A stretch of 35,837 bases of DNA from Hyphococcus sp. (lineage in GTDB: Bacteria; Pseudomonadota; Alphaproteobacteria; Caulobacterales; Parvularculaceae). This document shows positions 4,073 through 16,474 of the stretch, piece by piece. The DNA lies in the NCBI GenBank assembly GCA_021776315.1, contig JAJFGD010000196.1, positions 1-35,837 on the forward strand. The letters are read 5' to 3'. The notes under the pieces were generated by a model. It was given only the letters and a program-made list of their open reading frames with translations. It searched no databases and was not told the DNA's origin. A program made the translations under genes and the position numbers. The stretch's first letter is position 1; every line of letters begins with the position of its first letter.

Positions 4073-4291
4073 ATGAGTAAGTTAGATATCACAACGCAGG
4101 ATTTGTTCCTGCGTCTGGGCGCAACGTCTTTGACGCGTAGTGCCAAAGCGGACGCCTTGTTCAGGCGTTTGCGTTTTGATGAGCAATCGCAGATTCAAAA
4201 ATCGCTGACGGGTGCGCCAAAACGAATGGGCGCTGCAGAGATCGACGCTGCACCCGTTGCAAAATCAAGCATTCACAAATTCACGCCTTAA
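4073..4291 (+). CDS. Small unknown protein, 72 residues
   Basis: I do not recognise this protein. It is basic (many Lys/Arg), has no Cys or Trp, and carries no signal peptide or membrane helix, so it is probably cytoplasmic. Support for its being real: an ATG preceded by a G-rich segment (GGGGCGGGG) usable as a ribosome binding site, a CtrA-type site 51 bases upstream, and no better frame in this interval. The middle contains LFRRLRFDEQSQIQKSL, a likely amphipathic helix; the C-terminal 25 residues are Ala/Pro-rich and probably flexible. Its last four bases overlap the convergent glutaredoxin gene. If the CtrA site works, the protein may belong to the motility or cell-cycle regulon, but that is inference. 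Confidence 0.6.
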   Translation: MSKLDITTQDLFLRLGATSLTRSAKADALFRRLRFDEQSQIQKSLTGAPKRMGAAEIDAAPVAKSSIHKFTP

Positions 4292-4623
4292 GCAGCGTGG
4301 GTGATGCCTTTGGTTTCTAGGAACTGGCGCATTTCGCCTTTTTCAAACATCTCGCGAATGATGTCACATCCACCCACAAACTCACCTTTGACATAAAGCT
4401 GCGGGATTGTTGGCCAGTCTGAAAAGACTTTGATGCCATCACGTAAATCGTCTGATTCCAACACATTTTCTGTATTGTACTCGACGCCTAGGTGATCGAG
4501 GATTTGAACAACAACTGACGAAAATCCGCATTGCGGAAATTGCGGTGTGCCCTTCATGAAGAGCATCACAGGGTTGGCGTCAATTTTCGCCTTGATTTCA
4601 CTTTGAACGGCATTTTCAGTCAT
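4288..4623 (-). CDS. grxD: Monothiol glutaredoxin (Grx4/GrxD family, CGFS type)
   Basis: The 111-residue protein binds a [2Fe-2S] cluster together with glutathione and hands clusters to client proteins, often with BolA as partner. The CGFS active site is at residues 32-35, preceded by KGTPQFPQ. The glutathione-binding features (WPTIPQLYVKGEFVGGCDI) and the GGCD motif are intact, and the length is normal. In many proteobacteria bolA and grxD are neighbours; here the only visible BolA is fused to PurL about 9 kb away on the same strand. It is downstream of, and co-oriented with, the SDR gene 38 bases away, and it converges on the 72-residue gene with a 4-base overlap. Confidence 0.95.
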   Translation of the reverse strand: MTENAVQSEIKAKIDANPVMLFMKGTPQFPQCGFSSVVVQILDHLGVEYNTENVLESDDLRDGIKVFSDWPTIPQLYVKGEFVGGCDIIREMFEKGEMRQFLETKGITHAA

Positions 4624-13652: not shown

Positions 13653-13886
13653 TTACTCCGTACCCTCAGTTTCGAGCGCTAACGCATGTAACGCGCCGCC
13701 CATGCGGCCACCAAGAGCTTTGTAAACCAATTGGTGCTGCTGAACCCGAGACTTTCCATTAAATGCCGCGGAGACGATCCGTGCGCGATAATGGTCGCCA
13801 TCACCGGCGAGGTCTTCGATTTCGATTTCAGCGTCTGGCAACGCTTCAAGCACGAGCTTTTTGATATCTCCGGCAGCCATCGGCAT
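13653..13886 (-). CDS. bolA: BolA-family protein as internal start within purL frame
   Basis: Starting at ATG 13886 this gives a 77-residue protein, the normal BolA/IbaG length. The segment [18 protein letters not shown] and the C-terminal GGALHALAL are the BolA signature; the two conserved His (in QQH and LHA) are the ones used for [2Fe-2S] sharing with CGFS glutaredoxins. AAGGAG (13893-13898 on the minus strand) is six bases before the ATG, which is ideal spacing. BolA-Grx4 complexes handle iron-sulfur cluster transfer or sensing. Partner grxD lies at 4288-4623. A second ATG at 13880 is also possible. Whether it is made alone, as part of PurL, or both, is open. Confidence 0.75.
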
Positions 13887-16379
13887 GGCCGTCTCCTTTT
13901 TGTTTAAGGCGTTCATGTAATCCGGAAGGGCGGATTCAAAAATGTCAGACAAATCAAGCAGTGACAGCGCATCCTTTTCATCCAACAGGATGTCAGGCCC
14001 GCCAAATCGACCAATTTTAGAGGCTTGAACCCCAGCCATCGCCGCTTTCAATAGTAAAGTGTCAGCACCGGCTGGCGTTGCCGCTACTAGGTATCGCCCT
14101 TGGTCTTCACCAAACCAGAAAGCCGCTTTTCGCGTCTTAACCGGCGTTTGCAGGTTGAGACCTCGGCCAGCTGCTAGCGCCATGTCGGCGGCAGCAACCA
14201 AAAGACCACCATCGGCCACATCATGACAAGCGGTAACCAATCCTTCGTCGATCAGCTTGCGCACCAATTCGCCTGTCGTGCGCTCAACCGCAAGATCGAC
14301 TTTCGGCGGCGCCCCGCCCTCAATCGAAAACAGCTCACGCATATAAAGGGATTGCCCCAACCAACCGCGGGTCACACCTATAGAAATAAGCTCGTCACCT
14401 GCTTCGGCACCATCCATGCGAATGGCTTTGCTTGCATCCTCAAGAACGCCCACACCGCCAATGGCTGGTGTTGGCGGGATCGCCTGACCATTGGTTTCAT
14501 TATAGAGCGACACATTTCCGGAGACCACTGGATAGCTCAGCGCTTCGCACGCCTCCCCAATGCCTTCAATGGCACCAACGAATTGCGCCATGATTTCAGG
14601 ACGTTCTGGATTGCCGAAGTTCAAACAATTCGTAATCGCTAACGGTGCCGCACCGGTCGCACAAATATTACGATAGGTTTCAGCGACCGCTTGTTTGCCA
14701 CCCTCATGAGGGTCAGCTTTCACATAGCGCGGCGTCACATCCGTCGAGATTGCAAGCGCTCGGTTGGTACCATGCACACGAACTAATGCCGCATCACCGC
14801 CTGGTGCAATAATCGTGTCGCCCATGACCGTGTGATCATATTGTTCCCAAATCCAACGGCGCGAACACAAATCAGGCGTTGCCATCAAGCGCCCAAGCGC
14901 GGTCAATACCGTTTCTCCACCTGGTGTATCAGCAAGGGAAAGCGTTTCCGCTTTTTGTTCCACTTCAGCTGTTTCAACAATATTGCTAGAGGCAAGGTTT
15001 CGCGCCGCCTCTTCAAAACCACTAAAAGAAACACCATCCGCTTTGGAACGGGCATAAACCCGCGCTTCACCGGCCTGGGTCGTTAGCCCGACGGCATCAA
15101 CCAAGTCAGCATCCCCCAACCGGTCGGCGATCAGCGCCTCAGCAATCGAACGCATTTCATCGGCAGATTTACCCGGCGCCCGCAAAATCGCTTCAGCTTC
15201 ATTGATCGCGATCTCGGGATCCTCAAGCGCTGCTGGTTTTTCAAGCGTGACATGTGGCCGGTCATATTCCGGTGCAGAATCCGCGAGTGGCGAGACCGGC
15301 ATATCGGCGACCGTTTCACCCTTGTGTTTGATGACCAAACGGCCGCTATCGGTTGTGACACCAATCACCGCAAAATCGATATCCCATTTTTCAAAAATCA
15401 CCCGCGCAGCATCTTCACTACCCGGTTTTAGCACCATTAACATCCGCTCTTGCGATTCTGACAACATCATCTCATAGGCCGTCATATTCTCTTCGCGTTG
15501 GGGCACATGGTCGAGATCAAGCTCAAACCCGCCGCCGCCTTTTGCGGCCATTTCGACAGATGAAGAGGTAAGGCCCGCAGCGCCCATATCCTGAATGGCA
15601 ATAATCGCATCTGACGCCATCAATTCTAGACATGCTTCTAAAAGGAGTTTCTCTGTGAACGGATCACCAACTTGTACAGTTGGACGCTTTTCTTCAGACG
15701 CATCATCAAATTCTGCTGACGCCATGGTCGCGCCATGAATTCCGTCGCGACCAGTTTTAGAACCCACATAGACGACGGGGTTACCTACACCGCGTGCGGC
15801 TGAATAAAAAATCTTATGTTTCTCGGCGATTCCCACCGTCATCGCATTGACGAGAATGTTGCCGTTATAGCCTTCATGGAAATTGGTCTCGCCGCCAACA
15901 GTTGGCACACCCATACAATTGCCATAACCGCCAATGCCCGCGACAACACCAGAAACGAGGTGGCGCGTTTTGGCATGATCCATCGCCCCAAAGCGCAAGG
16001 CGTTCATATTCGCCACTGGCCGTGCGCCCATTGTGAAGACATCACGCATGATCCCGCCAACGCCGGTCGCGGCCCCTTGGTAGGGTTCTATGAAGGATGG
16101 GTGGTTGTGGCTTTCCATCTTAAAGATCGCCGCCAGCCCCTCGCCAATATCAATCACACCGGCATTCTCGCCAGGCCCACAGATCACCCAAGGGGCTGAT
16201 GTCGGCAGCTTTTTCAAATGCTTGCGCGAGGATTTATAAGAACAATGCTCCGACCACATGACAGAGAAGATGCCCAGCTCCACCATATTCGGTTCTCGGC
16301 CCATATGGTCCTTGATGCGGTCATATTCGTCCGGCGCGAGGCCGTGTTCAGCAACGATTTCAGGGGTAATTGCGGTCAT
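13653..16379 (-). CDS. purL: Phosphoribosylformylglycinamidine synthase PurL fused in frame to BolA
   Basis: The 908-residue frame begins as small-type PurL, the ATP-dependent FGAM synthetase of purine synthesis that works with PurS and PurQ. Signatures include [10 protein letters not shown] (residues 42-51), [22 protein letters not shown] and [17 protein letters not shown] 16379 (MTAITPEIV) is chosen over an upstream codon. PurL normally ends near WLPAYM; here the equivalent ALPDYM runs without a stop through NALNKKETA into a complete BolA module (about residues 832-908). PurL itself is about 90-100 residues longer than normal, because of an insert near residues 383-488. BolA has its own ribosome binding site inside the frame, so fused and free forms may both be made. 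No purS or purQ is in the window. Confidence 0.93.
13893..13898 (-). promoter_or_regulatory. Internal Shine-Dalgarno for bolA inside the purL frame
   Basis: AAGGAG on the minus strand, encoding Lys-Glu of the linker in the fused frame, is six bases from ATG 13886. It supports independent BolA translation. Confidence 0.7.
14916..15233 (-). other. Extra ~100-residue segment inside PurL
   Basis: Between PHVTLEKP (about residues 375-382) and the [20 protein letters not shown] segment (from about 490), ordinary PurL has some 35 residues; here there are about 130. The extra part is Ala/Glu/Asp-rich, helical in look ([20 protein letters not shown]) and lies at the junction of the two synthetase halves. 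The function is unknown. The comparison with typical PurL is from memory. Confidence 0.6.
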
Positions 16380-16474
16380 AAGAATCCAAACGCCAAATTG
16401 CGCTGTTTCCTTAAGCCGCTTGAGCCTCAGAGGCAATTCGCATCAATCTTTAAGAGGCGAAAAAGACCAGTATT

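Follow-up and report, generated by a model that had tools for sequence, protein, structure and literature searches.

BolA is familiar as a domain of larger proteins, as in the SufE-BolA protein of plants (SufE1) and in Grx-BolA architectures. We know of no preserved internal bolA start in either kind of fusion. An excerpt of PMC6558291 lists the existence of fusion proteins as one indication of a link between Grx and BolA. The gene that we describe here is similar in that BolA is one domain of a larger protein. However, the partners of BolA in the SufE and Grx fusions belong to iron-sulfur metabolism, while here the partner is PurL, an enzyme of purine synthesis. In a structure search, the BolA part matched chain 4pui, which is named as a SufE-like protein. 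A domain search of the fusion found AIRS, AIRS_C, FGAR-AT_linker, and BolA, and no SufE or glutaredoxin domain.

There is also a described case of a small protein that is made from within a longer frame. According to an excerpt of PMC11899642, Cas11b of Haloferax volcanii is a small C-terminal protein that arises from an internal methionine of cas8b, with a possible Shine-Dalgarno sequence. Our gene shares the single reading frame and the in-frame internal start. On the other hand, as far as that excerpt goes, Cas8b and Cas11b belong to one CRISPR system, whereas PurL and BolA come from different pathways, the origin of our gene from two genes is still visible, and our case is known from sequence. 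The closest relatives of the locus itself are the neighbouring but separate purL and bolA (yrbA) genes of other Alphaproteobacteria: these are the same genes in the same order, and often in the same frame, but at least one stop lies between them, which leaves two proteins only. In the literature that we surveyed, we found no explanation for this adjacency, which is seen in many Alphaproteobacteria. Among the matches listed in the openly accessible literature (titles and the starts of abstracts, with most subscription papers outside), no paper described a PurL-BolA fusion. Two papers that might have been reports of it, PMC10927867 and PMC3261824, were false leads, judging from excerpts of them.

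The window that we analysed is a stretch of 35,837 nucleotides from a draft genome of Hyphococcus sp., a member of the Parvularculaceae, and all of the features that we discuss are on its minus strand. The fused gene (13653..16379) encodes 908 amino acids in one frame, with 908 codons from the ATG at 16379 to the stop at 13653-13655. A TTG at 16436 in the list of open reading frames merely extends this frame upstream. The PurL part, which is subunit II of FGAM synthase, covers residues 1-822 (13914..16379) and ends in ...ALPDYM. It is followed by the linker NALNKKETA (residues 823-831; 13887..13913), whose sequence varies within the Parvularculaceae, and then by a complete 77-residue BolA of the YrbA type (residues 832-908; 13653..13886). 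The first codon of BolA is an internal ATG (M832 of the fusion; 13884..13886) that aligns with the ATG of separate bolA genes, and the Shine-Dalgarno sequence AAGGAG (13893..13898) precedes it with a spacing of exactly six bases. The calculated masses are about 96 kDa for PurL-BolA and about 8.2 kDa for a free BolA that begins at the internal methionine. The original prediction had reported one uninterrupted frame at these coordinates, a linker that is read through without a stop after ALPDYM, and AAGGAG six bases before an ATG at 13886; it was right on each point.

From its sequence, the N-terminal part is certainly PurL. It scores 1017.1 bits against NF002290 (cut-off 648) and 931.4 bits against TIGR01736 (cut-off 525.75), and the best Foldseek match of the fusion model is 3viu, the PurL of Thermus thermophilus. 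A separate PurS scored over the cut-off in 25 of 25 genomes searched, including the window's own genome. We also noticed that about 90-100 residues are inserted where the two halves of PurL meet (14937-15215; residues ~389-481). This insert is present in 12 of 12 aligned PurLs from the Parvularculaceae and in 0 of 10 from other families (an eleventh was left out as incomplete). The insert is modelled as beta-alpha-beta-beta-alpha-beta, which is ferredoxin-like, with a mean pLDDT of 86. We considered the idea that it is a second PurS and rejected it, as the profile comparison gave a probability of 6%. A Pfam search of the insert gave no match, and a fold search with its model gave weak matches only, to many families.

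The C-terminal part is, with equal certainty from its sequence, BolA. In its free form it scores 56.3 bits against PF01722 (cut-off 25.7), while it does not reach the cut-off of NF008638, the transcriptional regulator BolA (28.7 versus 137 bits). Its best solved relative is YrbA, chain 5nfk (E 8.7e-28), which we take to be the Sinorhizobium meliloti protein. That protein differs in being a separate, single-domain protein, but its histidines have the same numbers as ours if translation begins at the internal ATG: His32 (863 of the fusion; 13791..13793) and His67 (898 of the fusion; 13686..13688). These two residues are metal and Fe-S ligands of S. meliloti YrbA, according to an excerpt of PMC7538681. 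His32 and the C-terminal His motif with His67 are both intact in 52 of 52 complete BolA parts of the Parvularculaceae; this count excludes three of 55 genomes, one with unknown bases after BolA residue 42 (G042) and two that are cut inside BolA (G001 and G008).

Monothiol glutaredoxins are the usual partners of BolA, and YrbA-type members characteristically form a [2Fe-2S] heterodimer with them. The expected partner of a free BolA here is the glutaredoxin of this kind in the same genome. The window encodes one of the Grx4/GrxD type (grxD; 4288..4623), which scores 147.7 bits against TIGR00365, over the cut-off, and this family scored over the cut-off in 20 of 20 genomes searched. In the window, about 9 kb of DNA with unrelated genes separates the fusion from grxD, which is downstream on the same strand. 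In one relative (G039), grxD comes after bolA at a distance of about 100 bases, and in another (G075) at about 1 kb. This is the pattern that one would expect if an earlier purL-bolA-grxD cluster had been broken up in the window's genome. That genome also encodes a second BolA, of 98 residues, but this is of another type with a longer loop. To the extent of its draft assembly, a free BolA of the YrbA type could therefore come only from the fused gene in this genome. Across the Parvularculaceae, the matches listed besides the fusion were pieces of it at contig ends and weak BolA hits (E 2.1e-11 or worse), to which the 98-residue protein belongs.

The fusion is found throughout the family. We searched 62 genomes of Parvularculaceae, including the window's own, and all 55 that cover the junction, from 8 genera, have the fused frame without a stop. 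No genome was unfused. The other seven were not assessable: four had no purL match (G057, G044, G046, and G062), and in three a contig end cuts purL before the junction (G011, G060, and G077). A search of 40 relatives also showed the fused frame across the genus, which was confirmed by reading the junctions. Five of the fused genomes are single-contig assemblies (G004, G049, G054, G065, and G073). Since the same frame is present in 55 of 55 genomes, the fusion is more than chance. The original prediction had proposed that related genomes be checked for the same frame, and they do have it. The event is not one of a single genome, as had been implied, but an old trait of the Parvularculaceae. 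Leaky read-through, which had also been suggested, does not fit either, with a stop at the junction in 0 of 55 genomes. As an aside, contigs end inside the fused gene in nine drafts (G001, G005, G008, G011, G012, G013, G058, G060, and G077), perhaps because of assembly trouble at this locus.

Outside of the Parvularculaceae, the fusion was found in none of the 237 genomes of the order in which we found this bolA. Our sample of the order had 299 genomes, of which 239 are from other families, and 95 of these were among the matches listed. In seven of them, purL and bolA share a frame that is interrupted by exactly one stop; in the others among the matches listed, bolA is away from purL or in a different frame. 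For the remaining 144 genomes, we searched with BolA alone. Two of them (G247 and G271) gave no match; in the other 142, the open frame with bolA never exceeds 300 codons. Frames of that length are too short for PurL-BolA, so none of the 237 is fused. Four of the 95 listed genomes had odd open frames, which were considered as fusions and rejected: in G034 (857), G219 (604), and G240 (288), there are stops or another frame between the genes, and in G266 (301), bolA is a separate frame beside grxD.

More distant relatives give the same picture, with the caveat that the class and phylum samples were limited to joint matches at E 1e-40 or better, and a more diverged fusion could escape. In the class sample (385 genomes), 68 others had a joint match, each with at least one stop within it, and in the phylum sample (398 genomes), two Parvularculaceae were fused and five others had stops. 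Of 80 named loci, in a scan that favours same-frame pairs, four are fused and 76 have a stop between purL and bolA. Separate bolA genes mostly start with ATG-NNN-ATG, which is like the internal start of the fusion. In another family of the same order (f4; G026 and G111), the pair is in register with one TAA between, and the leader, if translated, would read ...PETDMPMAA. The ancestral pair may have resembled this arrangement. One stop loss near the root of the Parvularculaceae would account for the distribution of the fusion, and the original prediction that a purL stop was lost between neighbouring genes is supported.

Has the internal start been kept as well? All 55 fused genomes have the ATG, and at a suitable distance before it there is a Shine-Dalgarno core in 54 of 55, versus 131 of the 1,291 remaining in-frame ATGs in these purL genes. 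These numbers support the original prediction of a preserved bolA ribosome binding site. The mean pairing energy is -8.25 kcal/mol at the internal start versus -2.82 kcal/mol at other in-frame ATGs, computed with a 16S tail (anti-Shine-Dalgarno) whose sequence we assumed; a pattern search for this tail matched 0 of 8 genomes. An energy of -6 or lower is reached by 37 of 41 internal signals versus 3 of 41 assumed purL starts, which were set by rule and look doubtful in a few genomes. If the same peptides were recoded synonymously with the codon usage of these genes, the core would be expected in 29.3 of 55 genomes, while 54 have it. Taken genome by genome, this test falls below 0.05 in just 4 of 55, so the signal lies in the set. 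All of these comparisons count related genomes as separate points, so their significance is overstated.

The core appears to be conserved as DNA more than as peptide. It is encoded as Lys-Glu, Glu-Glu, Thr-Glu, Pro-Glu, Gly-Glu, or Gly-Gly, among others. Each of the three codon phases is represented, and the phase (taken from the first match) switched at least 10 times on the tree. Among the 55 genomes, between 4 and 15 different residues occur at each of positions -1 to -12. The upstream peptide is not wholly free, as Glu at -4 is kept in 78% of genomes, which makes it the most constant residue there, and Lys at -5 in 44%. The region around the start is also open. The mean folding energy of the 60 bases around the ATG is -9.3 versus -18.3 for other purL windows, and it is above the median of its own gene in 51 of 51 genomes. 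(The folding and start-energy comparisons use the 51 and 41 of 55 sequences with enough upstream sequence.) Compared with synonymous recodings, the start region has less structure than their median in 51 of 55 genomes, which holds for 42% of 306 control sites. In one genome (G043; loci L137 and L199), there is no recognisable Shine-Dalgarno core; free BolA may have been lost there, or another signal may be used.

The fused frame has been kept through many changes of the linker, which varies from 6 to 25 residues. There were at least 14 changes of length on the tree, and all of them kept the frame. A length change has about one chance in three of doing so. Together with the absence of stops from all 55 junctions, this suggests that there is selection on the fused frame too. 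The counts are approximate: 14 and 10 are minima on one quick tree, which includes the 45 of 55 sequences with over 700 residues of PurL and has several weak branches, and linker length was taken from a simple motif at the end of PurL. A model of the fusion (mean pLDDT 75, pTM 0.73, from 25 sequences) has the PurL fold and a BolA-like end, and it informs on these folds rather than on contacts between PurL and BolA.

We think it very probable, from these patterns in the sequences, that this is one gene with two selected products: PurL-BolA and a free BolA that is made by internal initiation. Each product could instead be the only one that matters. If only the fusion were made and needed, then the Shine-Dalgarno sequence and the ATG would be a fossil of the bolA leader. 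The genome without a core would fit with this, and given how constant Glu is at -4, Lys-Glu and the methionine may be retained for the protein's sake. But the core persists in all of the other genomes despite the shifting peptide and codon phase, and synonymous recoding would give a more structured start region, so we consider a fossil very unlikely. Conversely, selection could act on free BolA only, in which case PurL would carry its BolA tail as a harmless side effect of a stop loss that became frozen. The linker is indeed poorly conserved and is modelled with low confidence. Free drift, however, should have broken the frame somewhere, and instead it is intact throughout, after all of those length changes and with no stop in any genome. 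We find this explanation very unlikely too.

It is also conceivable that PurL and BolA are released from a polyprotein by a cut within the linker. The model's confidence is below 50 at residues 827-832, which might suit a cutting site, though it is equally low elsewhere (193-241, 260-268, and more). Apart from Glu at -4, each linker position agrees in about half of the genomes at most, so there is no obvious shared cutting site, and the internal start renders cutting unnecessary. This makes a polyprotein highly improbable. Finally, the original prediction gave a sequencing error as its main alternative, and the window comes from a draft assembly in 275 contigs. But a sequencing or assembly error at the junction would have to recur in every assessable genome, in 8 genera, and in the single-contig assemblies. 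For the family it is refuted, and its probability for the window is negligible.

Under our preferred explanation of one gene with two products, the stop of purL would have been lost once, in the common ancestor of the Parvularculaceae, where purL and bolA were presumably in register, and the leader of bolA would thereby have become the linker. Initiation at purL would now yield a PurL that carries a YrbA-type BolA domain at its end. Ribosome entry at the former Shine-Dalgarno sequence of bolA, within the coding sequence, would yield the free 77-residue BolA, and this could then pair with the genome's own monothiol glutaredoxin. Thus the fusion would tie part of the cell's BolA to PurL, and the internal start would provide free BolA for Grx. 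The original prediction that the cell may make both PurL-BolA and free BolA stands as an inference from the conserved signals, and to that extent only.

What might the tether do for PurL? The original prediction suggested that it might link a purine enzyme to the BolA-Grx iron-sulfur system. The tether might serve simply to produce the two proteins together or, at the other extreme, put purine synthesis under the control of iron status. In one scenario, PurL-BolA would be a purine enzyme that responds to iron or redox state: a Grx4 that carries a [2Fe-2S] cluster would dock on the tethered BolA and tune FGAM synthase, and free BolA from the same message would compete for this Grx. The ratio of PurL-BolA to free BolA would then set how purine synthesis tracks iron status. 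The ferredoxin-like insert in the PurL of this family could take part in the docking of Grx4. We consider an iron-responsive enzyme of this kind rather unlikely.

Whatever the tether does, the locus appears to be a clear case in which two genes became one and two products were kept. If so, annotation that takes the longest frame would miss free BolA across the Parvularculaceae. And because this family has merged purL and bolA, with both the fused frame and the free start seemingly under selection, an action of BolA on or near PurL becomes testable.
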